From the NCBI GenBank assembly GCA_025917655.1, contig CP084619.1:930001-994000 (forward strand): a stretch of DNA of 64,000 nucleotides, in the 5' to 3' direction. The DNA is from Chlorella sorokiniana (taxonomy: Eukaryota > Chlorophyta > Trebouxiophyceae > Chlorellales > Chlorellaceae). The position numbers and the translations under genes are program-made. The notes under the pieces were generated by a model, which saw nothing but the letters and a program-made list of their open reading frames with translations, ran no database searches and was not told where the DNA came from. Shown here piece by piece: positions 22,728-52,838 of the stretch (within the stretch, counting starts at the first letter, position 1; the number at the start of each line of letters is the position of its first letter).

Positions 22728-25700
22728 ATGGTGAGCTACTACCGCTGATCCAGTTCTTTAAATCAGGCAGGGGTGCCGGTGGCCGCAGCAGCGTTCACCC
22801 AGACAAGGCCCTTCCCAGTTTTTCGGGGAGGAGTGCCTTATTAGTAATGAACTGGAGGTATAGTCGATATAGCCAAGATGCAGGAATGCCTTTGCTGCGC
22901 CCCCACCCATGTCGACAGCGGCACCCAAGAACCCTTTGCGAGTTTGCGCAGTATCGAACAAGAACCAGCAACTCGTGGCGTCCTTTGATGTCACTTGTAT
23001 CAGGCTTATGCACCCATGATGATTACCACCCTGCTTGTCACCCTGCGCGCAGTTTCACCGACGGCGGTCAGGAAGTGGCCCTGAGCTTGGTCCCTACCTG
23101 CGGCTGCGCCGCTCTCTGGCAGCAGCGAGCCCTCGTTGGGTGTTCCTTTTGTTGCTGGTGGCAGTTGCCCTCATTGGGATGCACTCAGGGCATTTCAACT
23201 CGGGCGCGCTGGCGCAGCTTCAGTTGCAGCCGCCTCAAATGCCACGTCGCATGGGATTGGCAACTGCTGCAGCAGACACGGCGCTGCCATACGATAGTCT
23301 GGTCACGCTGACAAGCGATTCTGAGGTTTACTACAGCGGAAGCAACAAAACGTTGTCCTTTGACCTGTGCGGTGGCTTTGCACAGCAGCGAGTGGCGCTT
23401 GTCTCGGGTGAGCCCATATCGCTGGTACCGCCCATGGTCAGCCATTTCAAGTCCTAGCGTGCATGCGCATGATCCTGTTGCAGGCATAATATTGGCGTTA
23501 GAGCTCAACCGGACAGTGGTGCTCCCGCGTGTCCTGCTGGATGGGTCGCTGCCAAGGGAGCGTCCCTCCACTTATGCACCATTCAAGTAAGGCCCTGCTT
23601 CACTGCTGCTGCTGCTCACCCATGGTTCCGTTTGCCAATCTGCGAACAAAGCTGTGCGCTACACTGCCATGAGGCGTGCCATGAGTACGGCACGCCTCAC
23701 ATCACCCGCCGCAGGGAGCTGTTCAATGCCGACCACTTTGTGGAGCACATGCGCATTCTGGGTGTGCACATCACCGCAGACCCTCCGCCGCCTAGGGAGA
23801 TGTTCACGCTGCGACTGGGCCAGGAGTACGACCCCTTGAGGGCGCTGGCAGTGACGCATGCCAGTCGGCAACATGTCAGGTGCCACATTCGCTCATGTGC
23901 CCTGTCGCCTGCGCTGGCCGAGTCGGGATGCAAAGCAGCCACTCTTGTGGTGCATGTCGGTGGTCTGCAGAGTGGACTGTCCCGCACTCAAAGTGCCGCC
24001 TGAACTGGTAGTACGGCACGAGCAGCTTGTGTTCTCCGCTTTGGACGCTCTGCAGCCATCCAACCGGCTGGTAGACATCATCCGCATGTAAGGCTATGGA
24101 GCAAGGTCCGTTGTTTCAACTTTCTGTTGTGCCGCCACGCCATTCTGCTTTGCTGTGCAGGGTTGAAGGACATCTGCAAGGCTTGAGTGACATAAACAGC
24201 TACAACACGTTGCATATTCGTATGGAGGGCGAGTGGCTTGCTTATTGCACTGGCTGGCAGCACCCCACTGCCAGTGGTACGTAAGAGGACTGTTACAATA
24301 TTTTCTTGGTGTATGCTTGGTTGACATGAGAGCATCTCAACGGCATTACTTGCAGGCGTCGTGCATGATAACTGCATGAACAACACGGCGACTGTCGGTG
24401 ACCAGCTGAGCCTCCATCGAGTGGACCCGCAGGTGATATCCCGATCCCCATGTCCTTCTTGCTGCAGGCTTGGCTAACCTCTAACGCTAACCATTGCTTT
24501 GCCGGCAGGTACCTCTTCTAGTATCAATCCATGTGCTGGAGGCGGACGGCGGCCTGCTTCGGCAGGCAATCAAAAGTCTCAAAGCTCAAGAGTGTGTATT
24601 ACTGTGCAGTCATCCTACGCGTTTCTTGGTTTGGTAAATGTTCTCCTCCGTACATGCAGCTACAAAGTTGTACTGCGCGACGAAGTGCTAACGGACAGCC
24701 TTAATTTGCCGTCTCTTGCTCGTGAAGAACTTGCTCTGGTGAGTCACAATAATGAACAGGGAGAGGCTTGATCAATGAATTATATCCTGTCAGGCTGTTG
24801 TAGCTGTTCCTCTTAGCAAGCTTCTCTCATGTGAGTTGCAGGTGGACTACTACCTGGCGCTGGGCTGCCAGCAGTTTGTGGGCAACAGTGTATCGGTGTC
24901 AAGCGCCCTGCTGATCATGGAGCGGTGGCACGCGGGCCGGTTTGCCACCTACTACAATGGTGGCAACATCCCCCTGGAGGCCTTCATGCCGCTGTTCCAG
25001 TGAGGCTGTGCCTTGTGGAAAGCCTGTTTCAGGAAGCTGCAGGATGCATGCGCTGCTGTCTGAACATGAACTGCATTTACCTGTCGCCCTGCCTGCAGGA
25101 TGCCATGGGTGTTCACTTACAACGACTGGTCTGCTGGCACTGAGTACGACTACATGGTGAAGGCGGCTGTTACATCTGGCATCGAGGTTGCTCGCATGAA
25201 GCCGTACTGCATGTACAGCGGCAGCACAACGTCCGAGATGTACCAGTGGTTCCTGAGCAAGGGCGTGACCATCATCCAGGTTGCTGGGGGCTGGGGTTCA
25301 GGGCTGCAGTGTGCCGCTGCCGCTCATGGGGCAAACTCCTGGTTGCCCCGATGTCCGGCAGAAAATTGCAACTGTGTTTTTGTTTGCTTTACCTTTGCAG
25401 CACGAGCCTGCGTGGCGGGATGCGTTGGTCAAGGAGGGTGCACGCAACAAGGAGGCCAACTTGGCGCACTCCCACCTGTACAAGACGGGCGGCACGCTGG
25501 TTGGCACCTTCCAGCGCATCGACATCCCCATCCTGCGGCAATTTGACCAGTACAACTACGTGCTTTTCACTGGTGGGCAGCTGGTCTGCCGTCGCTGTTG
25601 CTTGTATTTGGGCTGTCGCGTGCTGGCCTGGGCGCCTCAAACGCGTGGCATGACGCTGCTGCTTCGTACCTGTGCTGGGGCCTGACAGCATGCGTCTTCC

Positions 25701-26701
25701 TGTGCAGACTGTGATGTGTACTTCCGGCAACAGATGAAGCTTGTTGATTGGGGCACGCCGCTGCCCACAGCAGTGGGCATGGGGTGAGCACAGATCTGGG
25801 ATTAAGATCACTTTGGTTGAATGTTTGCTGCTTTGCGACATCTCCTCATGCCTGATGGTGAGCCACTCATCATCACATCACCCTGTTTGAGTCATGCAGG
25901 TATGAGGGCCAGGATGTTTTCCCTTACAACGGGGATCATGCTCATGAACATGCCCTACATGCGCAAGACCAATGAAGATTTCTTGAATTGGATTTTATCT
26001 CAGAAGAACGGCTTGTACTACCCCGGCGAGTATATGGGGGTGCAAACTCCCCTCTTCGATTTTGTATGACACACCGTGGAAACATGGGAAAAAATGTCGG
26101 CCTGCCCCTGTTGTGTAGGCTACGGACCTCTGGATCAGGGCGCTTTCAATCAGTATTATGAGGAAGAGATAAGGGACAGGCCCATTAGCAAGGTAAACAG
26201 TATATGCTTCACATGCGGGCCAGTTTGGTGGGTGGACGTGAAATCTGAGTCGTAGGCTGCTTGTTAAGCTTGTTCAAGTAAAGCTTTTGCAGAACTTTAA
26301 TGCCATGATGTTCCATCCCTTCCGGCCAGATGCGCGCATTGTGCACATGAATGGGTGAGTTCAGAGCAACTTTGCCCTACATATTTTCTGCCATTGAACA
26401 TCATCATAACACTTGTGCTTCCTCTATGCAGGCCCAAGCCCAATCATTACTTGCAATGGCTGTCTACAGGCACATGCGCATTTCGCGACATGTGCGAAAT
26501 GGTAAGCAGCATGTTGCCATTTTGTTGCCACTGAGCTCTGCACCCTGAAGTCTTCTGAGTTTTCTGCTGATGCAGGGAATCTATAATGGTGCTTGTAAGT
26601 ATGCTATGGAATACGTTGAGTTTGCCCCGCAATGGGAAGTAGCAACCACTTTGCGGAAGCTTTGCGGCAACTTGCAAGCTGGAATATGGCATGCAGGCTA
26701 G
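22728..26701 (+). CDS. Two-domain glycosyltransferase copy A: O-fucosyltransferase-like + GT8-like
   Basis: About 17 exons. The first secure exon starts at about 23053 after GCGCAG; a candidate initiator ATG|GTGAGC lies at 22728. A type II anchor (WVFLLLLVAVALIGMHSG, about 23140-23190) is followed by an O-fucosyltransferase-like domain: DLCGGFAQQRVALVSG, LALELNRTVVLPRVLLDG, ELFNADHFVEHMR, VDCPALKVPPELVVRHE, LHIRMEGEWLAYC (the HxRxExDW-like nucleotide-binding block), NCMNNTATVGDQ and CQQFVGNSVSV. From about 25100 a GT-A domain follows: MPWVFTYNDWSAG, YNYVLFTDCDVYFRQQM (DxD), NAGIMLMNMPYMRKTN, GPLDQGAFNQYYEEE, RIVHMNGPKPNHYLQW (GT8-type HxxGxxKP), ending about 60 residues later. Inferred role: a Golgi enzyme adding sugars to a wall or secreted glycan. 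Donor and acceptor are unknown. Exons of the middle part (24839-25789) are nearly identical to copies B and C including introns, unlike the rest of the gene. No frame break was found. Confidence 0.75.
24839..25789 (+). repeat. Near-identical tract shared with copies B and C (gene-conversion candidate)
   Basis: This segment, with two complete introns and parts of flanking ones, matches copy B at a constant offset of 4311 bp and copy C at about 12417 bp, with only a few base differences seen by eye (for example near 25172, 25310, 25749 and 25764). Identity falls away sharply on both sides, at the splice acceptor before GTGGACTACTAC and just after the donor GGGGTGAGC. Confidence 0.8.
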
Positions 26702-27089
26702 CTTCAGGCTTTGCTTGTCCTGTAAACTCCTGTAAAGTTTGATTTCATGGTTCGTACGTAGTCCATGCAAGAACATTAAAAACAGTCGACATCATCGGCA
26801 AGGTACACGTCGTACTTCGGCAGGTGGTAATCCAAATACATCGGTTCACCCGGACTACGAGCGACTTCTGGTTCCCATGGGGGCCCATGCTCGCAGCACG
26901 ACCTGTTAATTTAACGCCCAACTGCCATGTCCAGAGTCCACGCGGTGGGTAGCGCAACTGCCGCCGGTGTCTGTTCTGAAGGTTTCATTCGTTGGGAGGT
27001 CAGACATTTGGGGAAAGCCAGCGATGCGCGGCAAGGACTTTATACCTGCCCAGATCGGTGGTTAGGTGGCTGGTTTCCGCCTTGTTCCC
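26702..27089. other. Intergenic region between glycosyltransferase copies A and B
   Basis: No other gene was recognised. It includes a possible short upstream coding start for copy B near 27024 (ATGCGCGGCAAGG). Confidence 0.3.
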
Positions 27090-30000
27090 ATGCAGTTTGA
27101 CAAACGCACCGCTGAGGCCGCGTACCTCCGTGATGTGGCAAGCGAGGTCGCCTCCCGAGAGAAGCAGGGCGGCCGGCAGGGACGGCGTCGTGGCACCAGC
27201 GGTGGCGCACGATTGTTGTTGTCCCTTCTGCTGCTGGCCTTCTGTGCGGCACTGCTTTATGCGGGGCCGATTTACCCAAGCACTGTTCAGCAGCTGCACC
27301 TGCATCTACGCCTACCCCAGGCTTCACAAAACCTAGAGGTCAACCTGGGAGCAGGCGGGTTGCTGGCCGCAGACAGCGTACGAACTGCAGTCACAGCAGC
27401 GGTTAGTGGAGCCAGCACCAGCACTCTGTCTTTTGAGGTGTGCAGTGGCTTTGCACATCAGCGAGTGGATATAGTGTCTGGTGAGTCTCGCTATTCTAAA
27501 GCTGCCACTCTGCGCTTTGAGGGCTTGCCTGCATGCAAATGCCTTGGACGGGCACCTCCCATCTCCTGGCCCCCAGCATCACTCCTGTGGCCGCTACTCT
27601 GCTATTGCGATGCAGGCTTGATCCTCGCGGTCGAGTTGAATCGCACGCTGGTGCTGCCGCGGTTGTTGCTGGACGGCAGCCAGCCCAGCGATGGCCAGGA
27701 TAGCGATGACGACTCCGTGGGGTCTGTGGAGTTTGGGTGAGAGCAGGCAGAGGTGCATGTTTTTCGGTTGTCTGGTAGCAATGTAGTAAGCGGAACTGGG
27801 GGATAGAATCATTGCCAGGCTCCATGCCCTTGGTTTTTGCACTGTCGTTTGCAGGGAAATGTTTGATGTCAATGCGTTTTTGAGCCGTTTGAGCGCTCTG
27901 GGCGTGCACGCTTCAGTCAACTTTCCACCGCCCTCAAGAACCACTGCTGGCCGTTTGGCGGACTTTGACAGCGTGCAAGCGTTGCGCAGCTTTTACGCAT
28001 CAAGACAACACTTAAGGTGAGGTTATTGTAGCCAGCAGCATTGCTGTTGACTGGAGGCCATTCTGTTCCTTTGGTGCTTGCCCTGCAATATCGGCAGGGG
28101 TGACCATTCTCATCTTTTGTGGTCCCGTCTGCGGCTGCAGGGTGGATTGCCCAGCTTTCCGAGTTCCTGCGGAACTGGTCACAAGGCATGAGAAGCTTGT
28201 GTTTGCAGCATTGGATGCCCTGCGTCCAGCTCAACCCCTGCAGGCCATAATCGACAGGCAAGAGTTGTGGCCCGGCATGCAGCGCCGTGCAGGGCAGGAT
28301 GTTGTGTGGCTTCTCTTGCAAGCTTGTATTTTAAGCTCTAGCTACCACACCACCCGATGAATGCTGAGGTGGAGCTGTGCACGTGCAGGGCTGAAGAGCA
28401 GCTGCGCAGCATGAGCGGCAGTCACGCTTTCAACGTTTTACAATTGAGGGCTGAGGATGAGTGGCTGTCGCATTGTGCCAACTGGGAATCCATTGGGGAC
28501 GGTGCGTTTTGCACTGCTTGATGCAGCCCTGGTTGGGACTTGTTTACACAAGCTTGCAGGGAAATTTTGTGCATCTCATGTTTGATCCTGCATTGTGCAG
28601 GTGTTGTTCGGAACAATTGCATGAATAACACCGCGAGAGTTGGCAACCAGTTGCGGCTGCATCGTGTCGACCGCCAGGCACGGTTTGGGGGATGTGGAGA
28701 TCAGTGCTTGTCTTTGGACCGTGACTTGCATTGGCGCTTCATTGTGTTGCAATTTGCAACAAAAGAGCCAGGCTTTGCAAAGTTTGAGCCTTGTAGATGT
28801 CATGTGCCGCAGGTGCCGTTGTTGCTATCCATCCGTAAGGGTAGCATGAGCTCTAGCTTGGTCCAACAGGCTCTGCAGAACCTTGAAGCGCACAGGTGCT
28901 CAGCTGACCATCTTTCATCTTCATGCTTTTGGCCTTGGCAATACATTTGATCACGATCCTCATCAAGACTTTGTTGACCTGTTTGGCATCTGCAGCTACA
29001 AGGTTGTAGTGCACAGCGACATTTTTGGGCGCGCCATGAAGGTGCCAGTGCTGTCAAGGGAAGAAGCGGAGTTGGTGAGCTTTTAAAGTCCTTCCGGCCC
29101 ATCTGATGTCCGTCAGGTGCAGTCCTGAACTTGTGCACTTTTTCTCATTCAGGTGGACTACTACCTGGCGCTGGGCTGCCAGCAGTTTGTGGGCAACAGT
29201 GTATCGGTGTCAAGCGCCCTGCTGATCATGGAGCGGTGGCACGCGGGCCGGTTTGCCACCTACTACAATGGTGGCAACATCCCCCTGGAGGCCTTCATGC
29301 CGCTGTTCCAGTGAGGCTGTGCCTTGTGGAAAGCCTGTTTCAGGAAGCTGCAGGATGCATGCGCTGCTGTCTGAACATGAACTGCATTTACCTGTCGCCC
29401 TGCCTGCAGGATGCCATGGGTGTTCACTTACAACGACTGGTCTGCTGGCACTGAGTACGACTACATGGTGAAGGCGGCTGTGACATCTGGCATCGAGGTT
29501 GCTCGCATGAAGCCGTACTGCATGTACAGCGGCAGCACAACGTCCGAGATGTACCAGTGGTTCCTGAGCAAGGGCGTGACCATCATCCAGGTTGCTGGGG
29601 GCTGGGGTTCAGGGCTGCAGCGTGCCGCTGCCGCTCATGGGGCAAACTCCTGGTTGCCCCGATGTCCGGCAGAAAATTGCAACTGTGTTTTTGTTTGCTT
29701 TACCTTTGCAGCACGAGCCTGCGTGGCGGGATGCGTTGGTCAAGGAGGGTGCACGCAACAAGGAGGCCAACTTGGCGCACTCCCACCTGTACAAGACGGG
29801 CGGCACGCTGGTTGGCACCTTCCAGCGCATCGACATCCCCATCCTGCGGCAATTTGACCAGTACAACTACGTGCTTTTCACTGGTGGGCAGCTGGTCTGC
29901 CGTCGCTGTTGCTTGTATTTGGGCTGTCGCGTGCTGGCCTGGGCGCCTCAAACGCGTGGCATGACGCTGCTGCTTCGTACCTGTGCTGGGGCCTGACAGC

Positions 30001-31283
30001 ATGCGTCTTCCTGTGCAGACTGTGATGTGTACTTCCGGCAACAGATGAAGCTTGTTGACTGGGGCACGCCGCTCCCCACAGCAGTGGGCATGGGGTGAGC
30101 TTTGCGAGACACACCTTACATGATACTGTTGAACAGGCCACTGTCACAGCACATGTGCGGCTTGACTCTTCCTTCACTGTTGTGTCATTGCAATTGCAGT
30201 TTTGAGGGGCAAGACATTTTCCCCTACAATGCGGGGATCATGCTCATGAACATGCCCTACATGCGTAAGACCAACAAGAAGTTCCTGAGTTGGATTCTGT
30301 CTCAGAAGAATGGCTTGTACTATCCAGGCAAGCTGCAAGCGTGATGGCCTGACGGCACAGAAGGGATAACCGCGTGTGCCCAGGCGCGACAGCTGTGTAG
30401 ACTAATTTGTAGACTACTTTGCTACTGCTTGCTTTCAGGCTATGGACCTCTTGACCAGGGCGCTCTGAACCAATTTTATGAGGCACAAGTCAAAGGCAGG
30501 CCCATTAGCAAGGTGGGGCGAGGGCTTGTGTTGGGGGCGGAAGGTGGCCTGCCTTTGATGGGAGCAGTAGACGCCCAGGTTGAGGAAATGATCATTTGAA
30601 GCCTTTGTGTACCTGTTGTCGCTGTAGGACTTCAACGCCATGTTGTTCCATCAGTACCGTCAAAATGCGCGCATTGTGCATATGAACGGGTGAGTGTGAT
30701 ATGGGCTTTTCATGGCATCACAACAAAGTGTGTGCTTTATGTTTGTCGCCTGCATCCTCATCTGGTTCGTTGCAGCCCCAAGCCAAATCACTACCTGGAG
30801 TGGTTAGAAAACAGGACATGCGCATTTGGCGACATGTGTAAAATGGTGAGCGACTCACACTGCTGCTGGGTCGGCCAAGCACGGCCGGTGCACCCGCCTG
30901 CCTCACTCCCCACTCTCAGATGGCCCGCTGCGTGACTCTCATGCTGTCCGGCAATCTGTCCGCTGCAGGGCCTCGGTAATGGGGTGTGCCAGTACATTGC
31001 AGAGTATGTGCAGTTCACGGCAAACTGGGATGTTCCCGCCAGATTGCACAAGCTTTGCGCCAGTGGTGCAGCCGCGCAGGCGCTGCAGCAAGCGAGCGCT
31101 GCCCAACAGGCAGCTGCCGCAGCGGTGGAGCCTCAGCAGGCTGCTGTTGCAGAGCATCAAGACGAGGATGCGGATGATGCTGACATTAATGTCGATCAAG
31201 AGGCCCCTTTGACACTGCAGCCTTCAAGAAGCCACGTGAAGGACGACAAACAGAGCTTACGACACAGAACAAACAAGGAATAA
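27090..31283 (+). CDS. Two-domain glycosyltransferase copy B: O-fucosyltransferase-like + GT8-like
   Basis: About 17 exons and about 800 residues, the best-preserved copy. The start is taken as the ATG at 27090 (MQFDKRTAEA), though ATGCAG|TTTGAC could also be a splice acceptor fed by an upstream exon. The anchor is LLLSLLLLAFCAALLYAG. Domain 1 shows EVCSGFAHQRVDIVSG, LAVELNRTLVLPRLLLDG, EMFDVNAFLSRLSALGVHA, VDCPAFRVPAELVTRHEKL, LQLRAEDEWLSHC, NCMNNTARVGNQL, QQFVGNSVSVSSALL and YYNGGNIPLEAF. Domain 2 shows VFTYNDWSAGTEYDYM, VLFTDCDVYFRQQMK (the DxD block is split by a phase-1 intron), PYNAGIMLMN, GPLDQGALNQFYEAQ and RIVHMNGPKPNHYLEW. After the catalytic core comes an Ala/Gln-rich then acidic tail that differs from copy C. 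Localisation is inferred to be Golgi lumen; the reaction is unproven. Confidence 0.78.
27205..31182 (+). repeat. Left member of a roughly 4-kb near-identical direct repeat (copy B)
   Basis: Matches 35311-39287 at an offset of about 8106 bp, introns included, with scattered substitutions and a few 1-3 bp indels (for example near 27800 and 30935). Identity starts inside the anchor-encoding exon and ends inside the acidic tail exon at GATGATGCTGA, after which the two copies are unrelated. Confidence 0.85.
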
Positions 31284-31500
31284 CGATACAGTGTTGCAGC
31301 TTTCTCCATGCCAATCCTTGTTTTGCGAGCGCCAGCTGTGGTTTTTCCTCTACTTGTTCTGTGTTGTTTATGTGAGCTTGCTCTTACGCGTCCTTTCTGC
31401 ATTTGTACGTTAAATGCATCTTTCACCATGTGGAACCAAAAAACAATCAGTACAACTATATGTAAACACGGTTTTGGAAATGTTGTTGTGTGATTGTGGA

Positions 31501-33186
31501 CTAGCTTTTGCTCTTTGCTATGACAAAGACAACACCTGCAAGAGTGCCTACCAGGATGGACAGCAAGTTAGGCACCGTCCATGGGACATTAAATGCCAGG
31601 AGGCCGATCAGCGCGAGCGGAACTTTATTTAGGCTGCCAACCAAGGAGTAGATGCTTGGCGTCGTGGTGCTGAGGAACCAAAGCGAGCTGAAGCTGCAGG
31701 CCAGGTACACAAAGAGTGGTGAGCTGTACACAACCCATGCCTCTCAATCCTCCAACACAGACTCTGTCAGCTCCCAGCAAACAGACTCGCCTGATTGCAA
31801 AGCCTATCAATCCACTGAAATTTGCCACAAGCAGGAAAGCTGTATTACGAAGGTCAGGCTCATCCCACACACGGTGAAGCTCCCCAGTAATAGCCATCAG
31901 GACAACACAGCAGGGCAGGCTCAGCAGGTTGTTATAGAAGACCTGCAAAGGGAGCACGACAGGATCAATGCTACAAGCATGACTATCACACTGCTGACCC
32001 CGGCTAAGCCCACCATTGAAAACTCGCCAAGCCGCTTGCCATCGCTTGTGTGCTGCGCCACTCTATCCATTGCTGATCGCATGTATAGTGAATAGGCAGC
32101 CGTGAACAGGCAGTTCAATATCTGCCAGAAGTAGCCGATGGCATTGAACGAAAGGTCGGTGGCGGCGCCACACAGCGCTGACAAAACCATCAGCCCAACA
32201 CAACCCCAGACATTGAGCTTGTAAGTGCGGCCATACAGGAAGTAGTCGCCCCCAAGTGTGAAAAGGTTTGTCAGGTTTTTGAGGACTGCAGGCCGGGGAG
32301 AAAAGATGCACCTAACGGGTTACAAGGTGGACAAAACAACAACGCATCTCAATGCCAATGCACACACACCTGTCACCATCCCAACGTTTAGGCTGCGCAA
32401 TGCCCAGAAGCTGGTGCCAATCATGCCCACAAACACCTGCACAGCGCCGGCACAACAACCACATCTGCGCTTCCCTTGCAGGCTGTATACTTGCACAAGA
32501 GCGCCATTAGCAGAGTGTGCACCTTATCACGGGAAAGCGCAGCATTGCGGTGACAAGGATATTCTCGCTGTGCAAGCAGCTGAGCCAAGCTGAAGCAGTG
32601 GCCACCCACCAGGTTGACCGGCATCCAGATCCGTATAATGTTCCAGTTCAGGGGCTCCACCTTGACCAGCCCAGCTGCTTTACATGCTTGCACCAATACC
32701 ACGCACAGCAAGCACTGGAACAGGAGAAGTGCGTTTGGGGATTCAAAGTGGAAGGATGATAGCGCAACCTTGTTAAGAAGCACCTGCAGTGCAAGAGAGG
32801 CAGACGGAATTGGGAGCAAAGGTTGATGCAAAGCAGAGATTTCAAGCCCTAGACAAGCCAGCAAGGTTCGCAGTCCGCTCCTGCTTGGTACAGCCCAAAG
32901 TGCGCGCCACCTAACCAACCCATGGCGCCGGTCCGACCGCTGTGCGAACGCTCACCATTGACACCGAAGCTGAGCAGTAGGCTGCTCCAGCCACTGCACT
33001 TAAGGGCAAGCCAAACAGGTGGCGCTGTTTGCGCTCCTCCAAGGAAAGACTGGGCTGCACTAGGTTGTTCTGGGAGCCAAACATGGTGCCGGACGGTGAT
33101 GGTGGCGGCGCCTTGCCCTCAACCCTTGGCGAGCTGACCACTACATCAAAGCTGCCTTTTGAGCCTCTGCCGAGCCTTTGTTCCAT
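31501..33186 (-). CDS. GDP-sugar (GDP-mannose/GDP-fucose) Golgi transporter, GONST family
   Basis: A multi-spanning drug/metabolite-transporter fold protein that exchanges GDP-sugars for GMP across the Golgi membrane. The conservative start is the ATG at 33186-33184 (MEQRLGRGSKGSF). The open frame extends upstream to an acceptor near 33310, and an ATG-led exon at about 33669 could be the true first exon. Exons in order: ERKQRHLFGLPLSAVAGAAY, LLNKVALSSFHFESPNALLL, FVGMIGTSFWALRSLNVGM, VLKNLTNLFTLGGDYFLYG, LCGAATDLSFNAIGYFWQIL, FYNNLLSLPCCVVLMAITG, SSLWFLSTTTPSIYSLVGSL, then NKVPLALIGLLAFNVPW and LVGTLAGVVFVIAKSKS with the stop at 31501. The GSLNK motif matches the GALNK/GSLNK nucleotide-binding motif of GDP-mannose and GONST transporters, which favours GDP-sugars over UDP-sugars. 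It lies antisense between copies B and C, whose first domains resemble enzymes that use GDP-fucose. Confidence 0.92.
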
Positions 33187-34136
33187 GTCCGGCCGGCGAG
33201 GGGTCGCGTCGTTGTCGGGCTCCGCAGAGCCCTCCAACAGTAAGCGTTGGCGCTCAATGATCGCAGCGTAGCAGGAAGTTCGCAGGGGCGCAACGAAGGA
33301 GAACAGCTGGGAACAAACAAAGTGGCGGTGTGGAATGCACGCCTGCCCGAAGAAGAATTTGTTATTGCATGGGCATGGCTGTCACGCGAACAACCTGTTG
33401 CGGGTCGAATGTTGACCCTCGTTTAAGTACGTTTTCGTGTACTGTTTTGGTCCCATGCGCAAATGTTAGCGACTCCCAGATGGTGTCGGTGCATCTGCGC
33501 ATATTATTTCCGTTGCCAGCACCTCGGGATCGAATTCGTCGAAGCTGGGAATGCGCTGGGCGAAGTTCTCGCTTGACTGTCCCGCCTGGGCTGTCTTCGT
33601 TCTTTCGTTCAAGCAGCCTGCTGATGCTTCATTAGCCCGCACGGTCAACGCAACAAATTGTGCAACCATTGTTCGTTCGTTCGTCTTGTAGTTAAGGGCA
33701 GGTCGGAATCAGACACTTGGCGTGGGCATGCCCCGGCTGCATTTCTGTCTACCGAAGCAGTAGCAGAATCTGGGCGAATACATCTGCTCCAGCTGGCGGC
33801 CAGACCCGACCAGCAGGGCGTCCCTCGCCCTTCGCAGGGCGTCGGTGAATGTTGACAGGGTTATCAAGCTGGTCTGATGCCAACAGTATCCGCATTGTAA
33901 AACAACTTTACAGCTTCGCACAAAGAGCTTCAACTTTGACACTATACATACCGATTAAAAATCGCTGCAGCGTCCCTTGATTTCCCAATCGCTGTAACGT
34001 GTGGGCTCTGGACCTGCATAGCCGCCAATCTCCTGTTTTCTCTTGCGCTCTGGGTCTGATGGTGCATCCTGCAAGTGACTGGGCCAAGAAACGCGCTAAA
34101 GATATCTACTTGATGCAAGATCACTTTCATTGGGAA
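33187..34136. other. Region upstream of the transporter, possible 5' exon
   Basis: The minus strand has an ATG-led 67-codon frame at 33466-33669 (MVAQFVALTVRANEASAG...). It could be a first exon of the transporter or an unrelated small frame. Nothing else is recognisable. Confidence 0.3.
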
Positions 34137-34571
34137 TCAGATTGTTGAGCAGCTCTCGCAGCGAAAGCGCTCTGTCACCTGTGGCGTGGCCGGTGTATCA
34201 GCCGTCGACTGCTGGGTCGGCTTGGACATGAGGTTGTGAAGGTCCACCTCTGCCCTGCGCTGCTCTTCAGCAGCAAACAGGCTGCCAGGATCTGCATCTG
34301 AAATCCTTTGTGTGGACGCTGAAGGAACTGCACCCTGCTGTTCGCTGGCAGCCGTGCTGTCAGGCGACACCGCTATTTTCTGCGCGACATCTTGACCGGA
34401 TTCTGACGACACCCATCGAAACAGCGTGAAAGGCACAGTGTGTGGACCTCTGAACACCCCCGCCCGCTGCCCTGTCTTTACCCAGCGTAACCTCATACAG
34501 ACTGTGCCTTTTGGCAACTCAGAATGTAACAGGGAAACCAGCAAATGGTGCACGGTTTTCCTGGTTGTCAT
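34137..34571 (-). CDS. Uncharacterised 144-codon open reading frame
   Basis: ATG at 34571-34569, open to a stop at 34137. The N-terminal half is basic and could target an organelle (MTTRKTVHHLLVSLLHSELP). It is followed by RLRWVKTGQRAGVFRGPHT, a Ser/Gln/Ala-rich spacer, AAEEQRRAEVDLHNLMSKP and a short C-terminal ERFRCESCSTI containing a CxxC pair. No family was recognised. The frame is longer than expected by chance for its composition and sits in the block flanked by the near-identical copies B and C, so it could have travelled with that duplication. Introns cannot be excluded. Confidence 0.35.
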   Translation of the reverse strand: MTTRKTVHHLLVSLLHSELPKGTVCMRLRWVKTGQRAGVFRGPHTVPFTLFRWVSSESGQDVAQKIAVSPDSTAASEQQGAVPSASTQRISDADPGSLFAAEEQRRAEVDLHNLMSKPTQQSTADTPATPQVTERFRCESCSTI

Positions 34572-35042
34572 TCATGCCAGTGGGTCGACGACCTGGCTGA
34601 AATGTCGGTCACAGGTGTGTGCAGATGAAGACGTCAATCATCCAGCTTCCAGGGTCCTGCTGACTATCATGATACTGTTCACTGTCTGAATAGCACCTCA
34701 CAGTGCAGCTGAGATGGCAGATGCACACACAGCGCAGACAGCTGACCAGCGGGCCGCATCAAGAGGCAGCAGTTTGCAAAGAACGAAGTTTAAAGATACA
34801 GTTGCATGCAGATATTGCTGTATATCTTCTGTATGAGCTCTGCAAATCTGCAGCTGAGGCAAATGCACGCGCGTGCTGTGTGCATTCGCCCTGTCCTGCA
34901 TTCGCCTGCCGTGCGGCGTCCTGCTGGCCACGACCGTCACCGCGTTGTCCTGATTGCGGCTAACAGGCGCTTGGTAAGCTTTGAATTAAAAACCTGCAGC
35001 AACCACGTATGGGGAGGAGGCCCTGAAAAGGGCGTGTCAGGC
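34572..35042. other. Intergenic region before copy C
   Basis: Open frames lack family motifs. It probably contains the promoter of copy C. Confidence 0.3.
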
Positions 35043-38000
35043 ATGTGGCGCAACCCCGGGGTGAGCACCGCTTTAGAGCGTGTGGCACCCGGCCCTCTTG
35101 CGCACAGATGCTGCACTCGCTCTTATCACGACGTGCTTCACTCCTCCCCACGGCACTGCGTAATGAAACCCTTGCCCTGAATGCTTTTGCCCCTTAATGT
35201 GTAGCTGGACAAACGCATTGTTGAAGCCACGTACATTCGCGATGCACCCAGCGACCTAGGCCCGCCGCAGAAACAGGGTGGCATGCAGGGGGCGGCGGCG
35301 CGGCCCGCCAGGCAGCGTGTTGCTGTCCCTTCTGCTGCTGGCCGTCTTTGCGGCACTGCTTTATGCGGGGCCAATCTACCCTAGCACTGTTCAGCAGCTG
35401 CACCTGCATCTACGCCTACCCCAGGCTTCACAGAACCTAGAGGTCAACCTGGGAGCAGGCGGGTTGTTGGCCGCAGACAGCGTGCGAACTGCAGTCATAG
35501 CCGCGGTCAGTGGAGCCAGCACCAACACTCTGTCTTTTGAGGTGTGCAGTGGCTTTGCACATCAGCGAGTGGATATAGTGTCTGGTGAGTCTCGCTATTC
35601 TAAAGCTGCCACTCTGCGCTTTGAGGGCTTGCCTGCATGCAAATGCCTTGGACGGGCACCTCCCATCTCCTGGCCCCCAGCATCACTCCTGTGGCCGCTA
35701 CTCTGCTATTGCGATGCAGGCTTGATCCTCGCGGTCGAGTTGAATCGCACGCTGGTGCTGCCGCGGTTGTTGCTGGACCGCAGCCGGGCCAGCGATGGCC
35801 AGGATAGCGATGACGACTCCGTGGGGTCTGTGGAGTTTGGGTGAGGGCAGGTAGAGCTGCATGTTTTTCGGTTGTCTGGTAGCAATGTAGTAAGCGGAAC
35901 TTGGGGGAATAGAATCATTGCCAGGCTCCATGCCCTTGGTTTTTGCACTGTCGTTTGCAGGGAAATGTTTGATGTCAATGCGTTTTTGAGCCGTTTGAGC
36001 GCTCTGGGCGTGCACGCTTCAGTCAACTTTCCACCGCCCTCAAGAACCACCGCTGGCCGTTTGGCGGACTTTGACAGCGTGCAAGCGTTACGCAGCTTTT
36101 ACGCATCAAGACAACATCTAAGGTGAGGGTATTGTAGCCAGCAGCATTGCTGTTGACTGGAGGCCATTCTGTTCCTTTGGTGCTTGCCTTGCAATATCGG
36201 CAGGGGTGACCATTCTCATCTTTTGTGGTCCCGTCTGCGGCTGCAGGGTGGATTGCCCAGCTTTCCGAGTTCCTGCGGAACTGGTCACAAGGCATGAGAA
36301 GCTTGTGTTTGCAGCATTGGATGCCCTGCGTCCAGCTCAACCCCTGCAGGCCATAATCGACAGGCAAGAGTTGTGGCCCGGCATGCAGCGTCGTGCAGGG
36401 CAGGATGTTGTGTGGCTTCTCTTGCAAGCTTGTATTTTTAGCTCTAGCTACCACACCACCTGATAAATGCTGAGGTGGAGTTGTGCACGTGCAGGGCTGA
36501 AGAGCAGCTGCGCAGCATGAGCGGCAGTCACGCTTTCAACGTTTTACAATTGAGGGCTGAGGATGAGTGGCTGTCGCATTGTGCCAACTGGGAATCCATT
36601 GGGGACGGTGCGTTTTGCACTGCTTGATGCAGCCCTGGTTGGGACTTGTTTACACAAGCTTGCAGGGAAATTTTGTGCATCTCATGTTTGATCCTGCATT
36701 GTGCAGGTGTTGTTCGGAACAATTGCATGAATAACACCGCGAGAGTTGGCAACCAGTTGCGGCTGCATCGTGTCGACCGCCAGGCACGGTTTGGGGGATG
36801 TGGAGATCAGTGCTTGTCTTTGGACCGTGACTTGCATTGGCGCTTCATTGTGTTGCAATTTGCAACAAAAGAGCCAGGCTTTGCAAAGTTTGAGCCTTGT
36901 AGATGTCATGTGCCGCAGGTGCCGTTGTTGCTATCCATCCGTAAGGGTAGCATGAGCTCTAGCTTGGTCCAACAGGCTCTGCAGAACCTTGAAGCGCACA
37001 GGTGCTCAGCTGACCATCTTTCATCTTCATGCTTTTGGCCTTGGCAATACATTTGATCACGATCCTCATCAAGACTTTGTTGACCTGTTTGGCATCTGCA
37101 GCTACAAGGTTGTGGTGCACAGCGACATTTTTGGGCGCGCCATGAAGGTGCCAGTGCTGTCAAGGGAAGAAGCGGAGTTGGTGAGCTTTTGAAGTCCTTC
37201 CGGCCCATCTGATGTCCGTCAGGTGCAGTCCTGAACTTGTGCACTTTTTCTCACTCAGGTGGACTACTACCTGGCGCTGGGCTGCCAGCAGTTTGTGGGC
37301 AACAGTGTATCGGTGTCGAGCGCCCTGCTGATCATGGAGCGGTGGCACGCAGGCCGGTTTGCCACCTACTACAATGGTGGCAACATCCCCCTGGAGGCCT
37401 TCATGCCGCTGTTCCAGTGAGGCTGTGCCTTGTGGAAAGCCTGTTTCAGGAAGCTGCAGGATGAATGGGCTGCTTTCTGAACATGAACTGCATTTACCTG
37501 TCGCCCTGCCTGCAGGATGCCATGGGTGTTCACTTACAACGACTGGTCTGCTGGCACTGAGTACGACTACATGGTGAAGGCGGCTGTGACATCTGGCATC
37601 GAGGTTGCTCGCATGAAGCCGTACTGCATGTACAGCGGCAGCACAACGTCCGAGATGTACCAGTGGTTCCTGAGCAAGGGCGTGACCATCATCCAGGTTG
37701 CTGGGGGCTGGGGTTCAGGGCTGCAGCGTGCCGCTGCCGCTCATGGGGCAAACTCCTGGTTGCCCCGATGTCCGGCAGAAAATTGCAACTGTGTTTTTGT
37801 TTGCTTTACCTTTGCAGCACGAGCCTGCGTGGCGGGATGCGTTGGTCAAGGAGGGTGCACGCAACAAGGAGGCCAACTTGGCGCACTCCCACCTGTACAA
37901 GACGGGCGGCACGCTGGTTGGCACCTTCCAGCGCATCGACATCCCCATCCTGCGGCAATTTGACCAGTACAACTACGTGCTTTTCACTGGTGGGCAGCTG

Positions 38001-39399
38001 GTCTGCCGTCGCTGTTGCTTGTATTTGGGCTGTCGCGTGCTGGCCTGGGCGCCTCAAACGCGCGGCATGACGCTGCTGCTTCGTACCTGTGCTGGGGCCT
38101 GACAGCATGCGTCTTCCTGTGCAGACTGTGATGTGTACTTCCGGCAACAGATGAAGCTTGTTGACTGGGGCACGCCGCTCCCCACAGCAGTGGGCATGGG
38201 GTGAGCTTTGCGAGACACACCTTACATGATACTGTTGAACAGGCCACTGTCACAGCACATGTGCGGCTTGACTCTTCCTTCACTGTTGTGTCATTGCAAT
38301 TGCAGTTTTGAGGGGCAAGACATTTTCCCCTACAATGCGGGGATCATGCTCATGAACATGCCCTACATGCGTAAGACCAACAAGAAGTTCCTGAGTTGGA
38401 TTCTGTCTCAGAAGAATGGCTTGTACTATCCAGGCAAGCTGCAAGCGTGATGGCCTGACGGCACAGAAGGGATAACCGCGTGTGCCCAGGCGCGACAGCT
38501 GTGTAGACTAATTTGTAGACTACTTTGCTACTGCTTGCTTTCAGGCTATGGACCTCTTGACCAGGGCGCTCTGAACCAATTTTATGAGGCACAAGTCAAA
38601 GGCAGGCCCATTAGCAAGGTGGGGCGAGGGCTTGTGTTGGGGGCGGAAGGTGGCCTGCCTTTGATGGGAGCAGTAGACGCCCAGGTTGAGGAAATGATCA
38701 TTTGAAGCCTTTGTGTACCTGTTGTCGCTGTAGGACTTCAACGCCATGTTGTTCCATCAGTACCGTCAAAATGCGCGCATTGTGCATATGAACGGGTGAG
38801 TGTGATATGGGCTTTTCATGGCATCACAACAAAGTGTGTGCTTTATGTTTGTCGCCTGCATCCTCATCTGGTTCGTTGCAGCCCCAAGCCAAATCACTAC
38901 CTGGAGTGGTTAGAAAACAGGACATGCGCATTTGGCGACATGTGTAAAATGGTGAGCGACTCACACTGCTGCTGGGTCGGCCAAGCACGGCCGGTGCACC
39001 CGCCTGCCTCACTCCCCACTCTCAGAAGGCCCGCTGCGACCCTCATGCTGTCCGATAATCTGTCCGCTGCAGGGCCTCGGTAATGGGGTGTGCCAGTACA
39101 TTGCAGAGTATGTGCAGTTCACGGCAAACTGGGATGTTCCCGCCAGATTGCACAAGCTTTGCGCCAGTGGTGCAGCCGCGCAGGCGCTGCAGCAAGCGAG
39201 CGCTGCCCAACAGGCAGCTGTCGCAGCGGTGGAGCCTCAGCAGGCTGCTGTTGCAGAGCAGCAAGACGAGGATGCGGATGATGCTGAGGGTGCCGGTGAC
39301 GCCATCAACACAGCTGCGATCAGAGCAGATGCTGGTGATGACCATGCGACCCCAGGCCACAAGGATCAGTCAAGAACGGCCAATCCCAAGCTAAACTAA
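35043..39399 (+). CDS. Two-domain glycosyltransferase copy C: O-fucosyltransferase-like + GT8-like
   Basis: Nearly a duplicate of copy B. A plausible first exon is 35043-35060 (MWRNPG, donor GGTGAGC) joined to an acceptor GTGTAG at 35204, giving LDKRIVEATYIRDAPSD in the position of copy B's FDKRTAEAAYLRDVASE. In that exon the frame breaks at a G5 run (35288-35292). Four Gs would restore GRRRGPPGSVLLSLLLLAVF, the anchor. All catalytic blocks match copy B, including LQLRAEDEWLSHC, FTDCDVYFRQQMK, GPLDQGALNQFY and HMNGPKPNHYLEW. The C-terminal tail after ADDAE differs from B and ends PGHKDQSRTANPKLN. Either the extra G is a sequence error and the gene is active, or C is a recent pseudogene with a damaged anchor. 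Intact downstream exons favour the first. Confidence 0.72.
35311..39287 (+). repeat. Right member of the roughly 4-kb near-identical direct repeat (copy C)
   Basis: Partner of 27205-31182. The intervening 4.1 kb holds the GDP-sugar transporter and a small open frame. Intron sequences are as conserved as exons, which points to recent duplication or conversion rather than purifying selection. Confidence 0.85.
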
Positions 39400-40603
39400 A
39401 CAACTCGAATGCTCCTTCCTTCATTGATGGTCAGCTTGCCTGTACATTGCCCTGTATGGCTACGTTGCATTAGTGCAACCCCAAGGGTAAAGTTCAAATA
39501 AAACCAAAGCAAGCACCAAAGTAAACAACTTTTGCCTTTGCGTCGCTCCAAAGCAAACTTTCCAAGGCGATATTGCCTTGGAGGAAATACCGCTGCAGCT
39601 CAAAGCCTATCAAAATGCAACTCAGACCACATCGAGTTTGGGCTCCAGAGAGCAAAACAACCTGTGCCCAGCCGCCTCCACCCTGCAAACACCTCTCCTT
39701 GTCCTCCATAAGCACATGCTCTAATGCCTCCCATCAGTCCTGCTTCTCTTTTGCTTTCCATCCTGTCTCCCTTTGCCTAGGGGTCTGGGATGGGATGGCG
39801 AAGCCCTCGCATGAGGGGACGATGCTGAAAACGAGGTTTGCTGCCCTCCCTCAGGCTTCTATCCAAGTTTGGTGCTGCCTCTCCGAGCGCCCTTCTGATT
39901 CTGACATCAATCAATACGCAGTTCCAGATGGAACTGCGTATTGGCCCCCTTAAAGTAGGCGTTGCAGTAGCCCGAGTCCGCCCTCAAAAGTAAAAACTAG
40001 GCTCGAGTAAGAGTTCGGTGGCTCTACGCCTGACTACGCCTGCTGTAGCACTTTGAGCAACCCAGCACCGCCCACGTGCGTCCAACGACAGGGCCCTGCG
40101 TGTTGTATATTGCTCTTGCAGTCAGTGAGTTCACTGCAATGGATGCCTTTTTCCATAACTTGAGGAAGTACAGTCCTGCGGATGAATGACGCGACAATGC
40201 CACAGCACATGCCAACTCCCTCGAGCGATTTACCGTTCACAAGCTACTTCGTGCAACTGACTTGTACCCTTGAATGACAGAGCTCAGTGCAACCGCCAGC
40301 GCGCTTCTGGCTCCCTGCGCCAGTGGTGTACGGGCCTGACAGCCGCGCCGCGCTGCAGCATAGGCGCGCTGCCTGAGGGGTCTCTTGGAAGCGGTCTCTT
40401 TGAAGGGGAACCCAACGCAGCGGTGATTCTGTTGCAACACGGCCTGAGTTTGCGTGAAAAGTTTGCGCGCGATGGTGTTGAAACCATCTGTATCAGCAAA
40501 GTCGCTCCTGGCATCCGGAGCAGCACCGTCAGTTAGGCGACAGTACAAGGTGCGGCCCAGAGCTCGCCTTTTGTCGTGTAGAGACCCAGTGAGGACTGCA
40601 ATC
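39400..40603. other. Intergenic region with a 32-bp palindrome
   Basis: No gene was recognised on either strand. Apart from the palindrome at 39912-39943 nothing stands out; it probably holds the copy C 3' UTR and the copy D promoter. Confidence 0.35.
39912..39943. repeat. Perfect inverted repeat, 15-bp arms, 2-bp spacer
   Basis: CAATACGCAGTTCCA, then GA, then the exact reverse complement. It could form a tight hairpin in RNA (termination or processing) or a cruciform, or be a transposon footprint. It lies about 510 bp after the copy C stop. Confidence 0.85.
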
Positions 40604-42774
40604 ATGGCACAGTGTCTAATGTTGCTGCAGGTCAGGGCACTAGGGGTGGCGCTGTTGGCTGTGCTGCTCATGTGGGCACGGTATCAGCAGACGCTGACCC
40701 TGAGCAGCAGGAAGGGCCCGCTGCGGCAGTCACCAGCATCTGGCGGCTTACTACTGCGTTCGGCAGAGAATGCATTCACGCTTCAGTTTGAGGTCTGCAA
40801 TGGGTTTACGAACCAGCGGATAGCGCTGATGTCAGGTTAGAGCTTGGTACAGCTGTGCTGCCCTCCCCCATGGAACCGCTTCAACATCTCACTGCTCTTC
40901 CTTTTACTACGGTATTCTCTCCTCGCTCCTGACTTGCTGCAGGCCTGATACTAGCTGCAATAGCAAAGCGCACTGTGGTGCTGCCCGACTTTTGCTCAAC
41001 GGCATGCAGCCAGATGACATGCAGACAGTCACCGCAAATGAGGCAGACACGGTGCAGTTCGGGTCAGTGCTCGCTCAGCGCCCGCCCTGCCCTCACTAGG
41101 CGCCGTGGGGCTGTCGTCTCGCCTGCTGCCGTGCAGACCCCTTGTCTGGCCTGATCGCCCCTTTTCCTGCGGTGACCTGTGTGTGCAGGGAGTGGTTTGA
41201 TGAGCAGGCGTTTGCCGAGTCGATTGCAGCACACGGTGTCGAGGTTGTCGTTGGGCGGACCCCCAACGCAACCCTGGTCTCTGTCAAGGAATTTGACAGC
41301 AACTCCAAGCCATCAGCCATCATTTCCCACTTTAGGAAGCAAAAGTCACACCAGCATATCAGGTGCCGGCCTGCTGGTGGCCAAGGCCGTTGGCTGGCAG
41401 CTGAGCAGCAGCTGTGCTGGGAACACACGCGCACATGCACGCCGTCCCGCCCCGCCACCACCACCACAAATACACACACGCGCCCCCCCGCAGCACCGCT
41501 GCCATCACTTTGGCAGTCTTGCAGCCTTCGTAGTGCCCCTGCCAACCTGTTCCCCACGTGAGGCCTGCCCGCAGGATCCCCTGCCCCGCCTTCCGCCTTC
41601 CCGGCAGCATGATGCGCAAGCACGCGGCCCTGCTGCGTGCGGCAGTGGAGGGACTACAACCTGCCCCCGCTTCCAATCCTTGCTGGCAGCGCGGCGGCAG
41701 CAGGTGGAGGCGCTCACAGGGTCGTCCGCCTACAACCTGCTGCACCTGCGGGTGGAGAAGGACTGGTTTGCGCTGTGCAAGCTGTGGGAGAACCCTGGCG
41801 AGGGGCGCAACAACTGCATGAACAACACTGTCACGGTCGGCGATGCGCTGCAGCGGGACGGCTTCGACCCGGGGGTGAGCGGGGGCGCTTTGCTGCCTCC
41901 TGCCTGCCAGCCTGGAAGCGCCGCAGCCGCATGTTAGCGGCCTGCTGGTGGGAGCCGGGGCCCGCAGCCCATGACGCTGGTGCAGAGCAGTTGTCCCATC
42001 GGGGCCTGGCTGGCTCAAGCCCCCACATCGCACTGCGCACCCACCACCCCGCACAGGTGCCCTTGGTGGTGGTGACCTCCTGGCCCGATGCAGTGCCCGA
42101 TGTGCTGGACAAGGCGCTCAAGTCCCTCAAGCAGCACAACTACACCGTGCTGCTGGGAAGCCAGTTGGTGCAGGCGGGGGAGGAGCTGACGAGGGAGGAA
42201 AGCGCGCTGGTGGGCAGTTGCAGGGCGGCTGCTGGCTCCCTGTGGCCTCAGTAGCCCACCCAACATCCCAGGCTGCCGTGCTCCCCGTTGTTGACCTGCC
42301 ACCTTGACGCCATGGGCGGTCATGTAGGCACAGCCATCGATGCGCTGCATTCCCAACCTCAAACGCCCTCCGCCCCCACTCCCACGCTCATCCCAGACTG
42401 ATTACTACCTTGCCCGCGAGGCAGCCAAGTTCACGGGCAACTCGGTCTCCACCTTCACGGCCTTCCTCATCCTTGAGCGACAGTGGCTGGGAAGGTGAGC
42501 GTCCAGGGCGCTGCGGTGCCGTCTGGCAGCCGCTGGGGTTGGCAGTCACAGGGCGCCAGCAAGCCAGCCAGAAAGCGGAGCGCGGGCATGCCGCCCCCAC
42601 CCAATCCCTCACTGACCCCACCCATCAACCCACACATGCACACACTCCTGCAGGCCGTCCGCGCACTACAACGGCGGCATCGTGCCTCTGGCCACATTTT
42701 TTCCCCTGTATGAGGAAGCGAAGGAGGGCGACAAGTTCCAGAAAGCCGACCCAGCGCTGCCCTCTTCACTCTGA
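40604..42774 (+). CDS. Diverged glycosyltransferase copy D: O-fucosyltransferase-like domain only
   Basis: The start ATG at 40604 gives MAQCLMLLQVRALGVALLAV, a type II anchor. Exons at about 40604-40837, 40944-41061, 41189-41361, 41574-41875 and later reproduce domain 1 of the neighbouring copies: FEVCNGFTNQRIALMSG, KRTVVLPD followed by LLNGMQPDDMQ, EWFDEQAFAESIAAHGVEV, NLLHLRVEKDWFALC (the LRxExDW block), NNCMNNTVTVGDAL, DYYLAREAAKFTGNSVS and AHYNGGIVPLATFFPLYEE. It then ends FQKADPALPSSL with TGA at 42772-42774. The GT8-like second domain is absent, so D is either an ancestral single-domain form or a truncated copy. Two frame breaks (after 40989 and in the C5 run 41664-41668) each fit one missing base. 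Confidence 0.72.
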
Positions 42775-46100: not shown

Positions 46101-47711
46101 TGCGCGCAGCCTGGCCACCAGCCCATGCGGGCACAGTGCGGGCAGCGGTACGGGCGGTACCCCCACCTGCATGTCCTTGTCGAAGCCGAGGCCGTGCAGG
46201 ATGGAGGCCGCCCGCACCTCCGCCATGTCAGACTCCAGCGCGTCCAGCCTGCAAGCAGCGGCGTACAGGGCAGCGGCAGGCGGGGCTCAGGCAGGGGGGC
46301 TTGTACGCGCATGGGCGCGCAGCTCGCCCACCAGGGCTGGCGGGGAGCGCAGGCCGGTCCTGCCGAGTGCGTGGAGGCTGCCCTGCCGGGCCCCCGCTCC
46401 CGTGACCACCCACACCCGCGCGGTCCCGGCCCGCCCCAGCCGCAGCCCACCGCTCGTAGATGTCCTCCAGGCGCGCCTCCACCTCCTCCCCCTGCTGCTC
46501 CGCCAGCGCCTCCGCCTCCGCCTCCAGCCGCGCGCGCTCCGCATCCACGCTCTTTACGGCCTGCGGGCAGAAACATGAGGAGGGGGGGCAGGGGCATGAG
46601 CTGCCTGCCCAGCCTGAAAGGCAGCACACAGCAACACTGCCCACTCGGCTGGCGGGCGGCTGGCACTCTCCCGCCCGCCAGCCCTGCTCGCGGGCCCCCA
46701 TCCGCGGCGCGACCACAGCAGGACAAAGCATGGCACAGAGCCAGCCAGGTCACAGAGGAGACGCTGTGAGAAGGTTTGCGTCCTGTGCCCTGCCTTCACC
46801 CTGGCAGCAGGGCGCGCAGGCGGCACTGCGGCAGCAGGGGCGGCCGCAGGCGGCTGGCGGCGGCGGCGCTTTCCTCCAGGGCGGTCATGTCTGTGCCGGG
46901 TATCTCGCGGTCCAGCAGGTAGACGTCTATGTGCTCTGGGATGGGCAGGTCGCGCGCCCCCAGCGCCTTGAGCAGGCAGCTCTTGCCGCAGCCGTTCGGG
47001 CCGATGAGGCCGTAGCGCCTGCGCAGGGCGGGGAGGGGGCGACGTCGAGCGCGGCGCAGCAGGGCAGCAGCCGGCCTGCGCAAGAACTGGGCTGGGCTGG
47101 GCTGGGCTGGGCTGGGGCCTCCCCACACCACGGGTTCCGCCCCAGCTTCCAGCCCAGTTGGAGCCGCTCAGCGAGGGGGCCCGAGGGCGTGGCGCCTCCA
47201 GATCCACACACCGAGACATTTTTGCTGCACGTGCCCCAGCTAGCCGTGCACATCTGCTGCGCAGCGCGGAAAGGCTGCAGCGCCCACCTGCCGTAGTTCA
47301 GCTCCAGCCGCGTGTCGGTGAGCAGCTCGTGGCCGTGGAACAGCAGGCTGAACGACTCAAAGTGGATGTCGCGCGACTGCGGGTGGCTGGTCAGCACACC
47401 AGTGGTGGAGCGGTCGTTGAGCTCAAACTCGGCGAGGGCTGCGGCCATGCCGTTGACATCGAGCCCGCCGTTCACCGCGCTGTTCTCCGCCTCAGACAGC
47501 TGCCCGGCGCTGGCGACGCCCTTCAGAGACGCCTTGCTGCCGGCCTTCTTCATCGCCGCCTTTTTCTTCTTGGAATCAGACGGCCTGAGGACGCACAGTG
47601 AAGCCAGCACAGGCTCAGGCCGTGCAGCAGCGCACAGGTGCATGCGAGGACACCAAAGGGCTGGAAACAATGAGTTACACGGCTTTCACCAAATCTAACG
47701 TGTGCTCACAT
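43153..47711 (-). CDS. ABCF1: ABC-F ATPase ABCF1 (GCN20-type, soluble twin-ATPase)
   Basis: ABC-F proteins have two ATP-binding cassettes and no membrane domain and act on ribosomes; the GCN20 branch takes part in eIF2alpha kinase signalling. The start codon appears to be split by an intron: exon 1 ends AT at 47710 before GTGAGC, and exon 2 begins G at 47584, giving [18 protein letters not shown]. Then come [35 protein letters not shown] (Walker A 1), [19 protein letters not shown] (signature 1), [20 protein letters not shown] (Walker B 1), [72 protein letters not shown] (Walker A 2), [17 protein letters not shown] (signature 2, with Leu where Gln is usual), [19 protein letters not shown] (Walker B 2), [17 protein letters not shown] and the C-terminus. 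One base is missing near 43617-43622, before Walker B 2. Introns hold 48-bp and GGGCT tandem repeats. Confidence 0.97.
44657..44770. repeat. 48-bp tandem repeat, about 2.4 units, in an ABCF1 intron
   Basis: Units begin CAGCGCATGCTGCTGCAACA at 44657 and 44705, with a partial third at 44753. Units differ by single substitutions. It lies within an intron by the ABCF1 gene model. Confidence 0.8.
47089..47120. repeat. GGGCT pentamer microsatellite in an ABCF1 intron
   Basis: Five to six consecutive GGGCT units, intronic by the gene model. The unit is not the plant telomere motif. Slippage is the simplest origin. Confidence 0.75.
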
Positions 47712-52613: not shown

Positions 52614-52838
52614 ACAAAGATTACAGTTGCATTGGGTGCAAAACCAACACAGTACAAGTACTTTGCCACGACTTGTGAGAGCAGCAATGTTGGCGCCACC
52701 GAGGCAATAACCACTGGTGGCTGCTGGGCTGCGTCCTTTGGACCGCTATGCTGTAGATGCATTTGACTTACTTGCTGCGACTTTCGTAAGGCATCGTCCT
52801 GCTGAAGTTCTCCCGTGCAACACTCCCCGATTGCAAGC

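Follow-up and report, generated by a model that had tools for sequence, protein, structure and literature searches.

Multi-domain glycosyltransferase chains are already known, among them LARGE1, WbbM, PgtA and the A111/114R protein of PBCV-1, but the pairing of an O-fucosyltransferase-like (O-FucT-like) domain with a GT8-like domain described here is probably new. The pair was found in a 64,000-nucleotide stretch of Chlorella sorokiniana DNA (GenBank assembly GCA_025917655.1, contig CP084619.1, positions 930,001–994,000), referred to below as the window. It sits on contig C2 of the genome that was searched (38.8 Mb in 15 contigs). Three adjacent genes in the window, A, B and C, all on the forward strand, carry an O-FucT-like motif set followed by a GT8-like set, and the same contig has two further fused copies, D at ~309–313 kb and E at ~392–396 kb. 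We consider it reasonably probable that A to E encode a single membrane-anchored chain in the Golgi lumen, with two transferase domains that place two sugars successively. To our knowledge, the enzymes that build the walls and secreted glycans of green algae are poorly known; a fused pair would hint at which two sugars adjoin, and one expressed protein could reveal the linkage.

LARGE1 unites a GT8-fold half with a second transferase that is not of the O-FucT type, and WbbM is a bifunctional bacterial polysaccharide glycosyltransferase whose partner domain differs from that of the algal chain. The first algal half resembles POFUT1, a single-domain enzyme of CAZy family GT65, in a profile match that includes the HLR...W and GNxVSxFxA...ER blocks. 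The algal protein differs in being anchored and, in A to E, in being fused to a second transferase and in carrying changes at the H, the D or both in the signature. The second half is like the GT8 enzymes (glycogenin, LgtC, GlyE and the Skp1 alpha-galactosyltransferase) in its DxD and distal H..G.KP motifs and in the fold of a bacterial relative, but it scores under the cut-off of the GT8 profile PF01501 and forms a subfamily of its own with four extra cysteines.

PgtA of Dictyostelium and Toxoplasma is described as a GT74 and a GT2 domain in one chain that adds galactose and fucose successively (PMC6939170). It differs in its domain families and, in Dictyostelium, in being cytoplasmic. A111/114R of PBCV-1, a virus of chlorella-like algae, has three putative transferase domains in one chain, including a fucosyltransferase; it differs in being viral, and its authors place glycosylation outside the endoplasmic reticulum and Golgi (PMC7826918). 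Two cyanobacterial proteins of more than 1,500 residues (L054, 2–4936, and L056, 299–4972) contain the same GT8-like domain in one chain with an FkbM methyltransferase, a GT11 fucosyltransferase-family domain and a GT92/GT2-like domain. They differ from the algal chain in having GT11 instead of O-FucT and in the additional methyltransferase, and no O-FucT profile link was found in the L056 chain. The PF01501 profile passes in L056 only, the GT8-like domain of L054 having been placed by the bacterial scan.

A chain with O-FucT and GT8 domains was absent from titles and abstracts among the matches listed in a literature search that mostly did not extend to subscription journals. The first-pass annotation of this DNA had offered the architecture as one without a named family, which holds for the exact pair among those matches but not for multi-transferase chains as a kind.

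Structure of the fused genes

The exon models of genes A to G were assembled manually, guided by GT-AG and GC-AG splice sites and by consistency among the copies; the introns mark the DNA as eukaryotic. Gene B (27,090–31,283, + strand) gave a stop-free model of 17 exons and 792 amino acids. Its single strongly hydrophobic stretch, at residues 43–61, is the anchor, and is followed by the O-FucT-like domain (residues 113–434) and the GT8-like half from residue 435. Genes A and C have the same exon plan. Gene A (22,728–26,701, + strand) has modelled exons from 23,053 to 26,701; its 5′ end is only a candidate, and the putative start chosen in the first-pass annotation calls for a very short first exon at 22,728 that holds just the ATG. 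Gene C (35,290–39,399, + strand) is a near-copy of B, with 98.8% identity across 3,972 bp, and has no in-frame ATG before the anchor unless an unseen 5′ exon exists.

The two halves meet at intron 9 of B (29,311–29,409, + strand, 99 nucleotides, CCA/GTGAGG...CTGCAG/GATGCC), a phase-2 GT-AG intron that is present in all five fused copies and takes the protein from ...PLFQ to MPWVFTYNDW. Exon 9 ends ...CCGCTGTTCCA and exon 10 starts GATGCCATGGGTG, giving PLFQ-MPWV in A, B and C. The joint of D is spliced CA/A with the Gln kept, and that of E reads PLYQ-MPWV. The intron is 85–101 nucleotides long in the five copies, compared with a median of 105 nucleotides for the 91 modelled introns. GC donors were used in 11 of these 91, and B, C and D each have them in introns 4, 6 and 13; the usual share of GC-donor introns is a few percent or less, below that in the A to G models.

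Two lone O-FucT genes were also found. Gene F (40,604–42,774, + strand) encodes a single-domain anchored O-FucT-like protein with the block HLRVEKDW, and gene G lies directly upstream of E. Both B and G have uninterrupted reading frames. Genome-wide, no GT8-like gene standing alone was found; among the matches listed, all fell within A to E, and the match counts for the family are lower bounds. Because the same block order is seen again in D and E, far from the cluster, the fused arrangement goes beyond chance. As judged from the gene models, the family is genuine and includes at least one fused gene with an intact frame.

The claim that three neighbouring genes carry both motif sets was thus borne out by the models of A, B and C. 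In A, however, a 2-base frame break at 25,930 falls within NAGIMLMN and makes that block unreadable. The interval 22,728–42,774, annotated as three fused genes, does contain A to C but also holds a transporter-like gene and gene F, whose stop is at 42,774.

Domain assignments and selection

When the O-FucT half of B was scanned alone against the O-FucT profile PF10250 (gathering cut-off 31.5 bits) it scored 46.3 bits over profile positions 4–323 of 326, confirming the first-pass assignment. The other copies scanned also matched end to end above the cut-off (A 50.6, E 57.9 and G 66.0 bits). A search of the whole genome with PF10250 gave no match, but the exon-by-exon method used detected none of 14 controls either. 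A six-sequence O-FucT profile matched only POFUT1 structures in the PDB at E ≤1 (four distinct sequences, best 6.7e-10); in that best match, to 5ux6, the strongest stretch covered positions 146–305 of 320 and the N-terminal part was weak.

By sequence, the GT8-like half is part of a bacterial family whose members bridge it to GT8. A bacterial scan with a plasmid relative added to the patterns recovered 54 loci, whereas the narrower patterns found no relative. Five of nine bacterial relatives scanned exceeded the PF01501 gathering cut-off of 24.3 bits (P0002 32.8, L047 39.9, L048 37.1, L056 35.7 and L050 28.0); P0001, L077, L093 and L099 fell under it, as did L054 as a whole chain. The relative in L047 has a GT-A fold of the GT8 type, like glycogenin and LgtC, and also matched LARGE1 and WbbM (PDB 6u4b), the fold comparison covering this bacterial protein rather than the spliced algal one. 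Residues D118, D120, H228, K233 and P234, which form the DxD and the distal H..G.KP (HxxGxxKP in GT8), are invariant in all 10 aligned rows. Four C-terminal cysteines were shared by the GT8-like halves of all five fused copies and absent from the eight bacterial rows compared. The GT8-like half itself contains no hydrophobic stretch. At 42 of the 54 bacterial loci the match begins at frame residue 0 or 1, with the Met aligned with that of the algal MPWV. The GT8-like half thus begins at the initiator Met of the bacterial family and looks like an enzyme of bacterial type that once stood free.

A tree of the GT8-like domain was built from 55 rows, comprising algal A, B, D and E, 50 of the 54 bacterial loci and an Azospirillum plasmid protein; L053, L088, L095 and L100, which are short or broken, and the Escherichia coli plasmid protein were left out. 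With midpoint rooting, the algal clade fell outside the bacterial rows on a very long branch, so the tree identifies no donor lineage and does not demonstrate transfer. A viral origin of the fused genes was rejected, as scans of viruses with both halves, and of phages with the GT8-like half, found no relative. NCBIfam gave no match for the GT8-like half of B or for G, and, for an Azospirillum protein, a single match below the threshold. The relative in the E. coli plasmid pEC81-2 (L045, 3932–5062) lies in a stretch that also holds a nucleotide sugar dehydrogenase gene and several insertion sequences.

Purifying selection acts on both halves. The ratio of non-synonymous to synonymous substitution (dN/dS, Nei-Gojobori method) was 0.10–0.28 for the O-FucT half in six comparisons among A, B, D and E. 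Between B and D it was 0.17 for the O-FucT half (dS 0.31) and 0.09 for the GT8-like half (dS 0.23), and between B and E 0.17 (dS 2.6) and 0.07 (dS 3.1), values that are rough because they are near saturation. F and G gave 0.11. The GT8-like halves of B and C gave 0.80, from few changes and with C-terminal tails that differ. A 951-bp tract of A (24,839–25,789, + strand) is 99.6% identical to B 29,150–30,100 despite a dS of 1.2 between A and B over the whole O-FucT half, which points to gene conversion. The tract spans exons 9–12 with the joint and the introns, and stops shortly before the frame break in A.

Proposed activity and alternatives

The proposed enzyme would consist of a short N-terminal tail, one anchor, an inverting GT-B domain of the O-FucT superfamily and a retaining-type GT8-like GT-A domain, the inverting and retaining mechanisms and the use of Mn2+ being family properties. 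Both domains would face the Golgi lumen, a placement suggested by the anchor and by the four additional cysteines of the GT8-like tail. The first domain would most likely use a guanosine diphosphate (GDP)- or other nucleoside diphosphate-linked deoxyhexose and the second a uridine diphosphate-sugar with Mn2+, and the two sugars would be added in turn, in the presumed order of action, to a wall or secreted glycan. The family has expanded through tandem and dispersed duplication, and gene conversion homogenises it. A single chain is likely for the fused genes, judging from their sequences, and a double activity is plausible. The earlier proposal of an anchored chain that combines two glycosyltransferase folds has good support from the open frame, the splice anatomy, the purifying selection on both halves and the alga-specific cysteines of the second half. 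If correct, a bacterial-type GT8-like enzyme, apparently acquired as a whole frame, would have been wired through one intron into a secretory-type enzyme, another route to two-headed glycosyltransferases besides LARGE1, PgtA and WbbM.

Several observations count against this proposal. Used as a single query against the PDB, the O-FucT half of B found POFUT1 only at E 0.17, ranked behind unrelated matches. The first-pass assignment of the second half to PF01501 failed at the cut-off in both algal copies scanned, with 21.0 bits (E 2.9e-4) for the GT8-like half of B alone and 17.2 bits for that of E. A profile search of the PDB with this half gave no match, and a sequence search matched only designed repeat proteins, which were taken as noise.

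The H-x-R-x3-D-W signature, whose Arg is probably the key donor-binding residue, is complete in POFUT1 and in the lone F and G but altered in all five fused copies, and E is furthest from it. The POFUT1 block HLRIGSDW aligns to HLRVEKDW in F and G, HIRMEGEW in A, QLRAEDEW in B and C, QLRADDEW in D and HLKAEAGW in E. Gln replaces the His in B, C and D, Glu replaces the Asp in A to D, and in E Lys replaces the Arg and Gly the Asp. The lone copies thus keep the signature from which the five fused copies depart. It is possible, though rather unlikely, that the single chain has one active site, with a catalytic GT8-like domain and an O-FucT domain that binds the acceptor or stabilises the protein, its own activity lost or changed. 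Besides the signature, kept in both lone genes and in no fused copy, the Lys that replaces the signature Arg in E and the stronger constraint on the GT8-like half would fit this arrangement. It is harder to reconcile with the purifying selection on the O-FucT half (dN/dS 0.10–0.28), with the Arg retained in A to D and with the Gln of the GFxxQ block, invariant in all six aligned rows. Of the bifunctional chain originally proposed, the GT8-like half retains the catalytic residues, whereas in every fused copy the signature of the O-FucT half is altered.

The joint bears on whether there is one chain at all. It lies at the position of the bacterial start Met, and retention of intron 9 leads to an immediate stop (CAG TGA) in all five copies, so that two products remain conceivable: an anchored O-FucT protein that stops after PLFQ and an independent GT8-like protein that begins at MPWV, made from a bicistronic mRNA or two transcripts. 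The joint donor ranks in the lowest 1–2% of 86 other modelled introns, scoring low because the exon ends in A at position −1. The joint acceptor ranks at 76% in A to C, at 33% in D and in the lowest 5% in E, against a scoring set that included one wrong acceptor of E. We regard two proteins as quite unlikely. The stop was rejected as a sign of two genes, since any phase-2 GTGAG intron yields one, as introns 2, 3, 12 and 15 of B also do. GTGAG and the acceptor CAG are kept in E even though intron 9 is only 62% identical between B and E (exon 9 77%, exon 10 81%; shuffle control 55%, standard deviation 3). Bicistronic mRNAs exist in green algae, but in those loci the first open reading frame (ORF1) is short, with medians of 357 and 291 nucleotides, and AUG-depleted (PMC11892635). 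As modelled, ORF1 of the fused genes is 1,206–1,302 nucleotides long and is not depleted (16 ATGs in C, 18 in A, 18 in B, 26 in E and 27 in D; 16–19 expected), which argues against leaky scanning. The four conserved cysteines fit a domain that faces the lumen, and the GT8-like half, as noted, lacks a hydrophobic stretch. Together, the length and AUG content of ORF1, the retained splice sites and the extra cysteines favour one chain.

The conserved weak donor of the joint intron is also the basis of a more ambitious idea that we consider doubtful on present gene models. The fused genes may represent a new eukaryotic bifunctional class, in which a POFUT1-like inverting and a bacterial-type GT8-like retaining transferase, fused and acting in the Golgi lumen, make a two-sugar unit that other lineages are not known to have, tunable by regulated splicing. 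Retention of intron 9 would then end translation after the O-FucT domain, and one gene would give both a one-headed and a two-headed enzyme.

Seven frame breaks were found, one in A, one in D, three in E and two in F, the latter of one base each in homopolymer runs at 40,994 and 41,668. With these breaks, the missing clear start of C and a TAG within the C-terminal tail of D, most of the copies could be decaying pseudogenes of a once-fused gene. In a chaperonin control from the same genome (55 exon hits, 9,039 nucleotides) no hit pair lay <95 nucleotides apart and there was no sign of a frame break, although very short fragments would have scored below the threshold; this control speaks against a generally error-ridden assembly. 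Decay is nevertheless very unlikely as the general explanation, given the intact B and G and the low dN/dS, and five of the seven breaks fall in homopolymer runs, which also fits sequence error in repeated genes.

Neighbouring genes

Between B and C is a GDP-mannose-transporter-like gene (31,501–33,186, − strand) of six exons and 362 amino acids with a GSLNK motif. Its product matched PDB entries 9s35 (E 1.4e-33) and 5oge (1.2e-31) and the Pfam TPT profile (48.1 bits, cut-off 30), and genome-wide there was one strong copy and one weak match, on contig C9. The adjacency of a GDP-sugar transporter to O-FucT genes is suggestive, but GDP-sugar transporters are widespread and a single adjacency is weak evidence. 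Outside the cluster, an open frame at 60,738–61,838 (− strand) matched the nucleotide-diphospho-sugar transferase profile PF03407 with 39.0 bits (cut-off 22). The other neighbours identified with Pfam were ordinary: pieces of a phosphoenolpyruvate carboxylase gene (123–4098, − strand), of an ABC ATPase gene (43,242–46,795, − strand) and of a TsaD gene (52,790–54,954, + strand).

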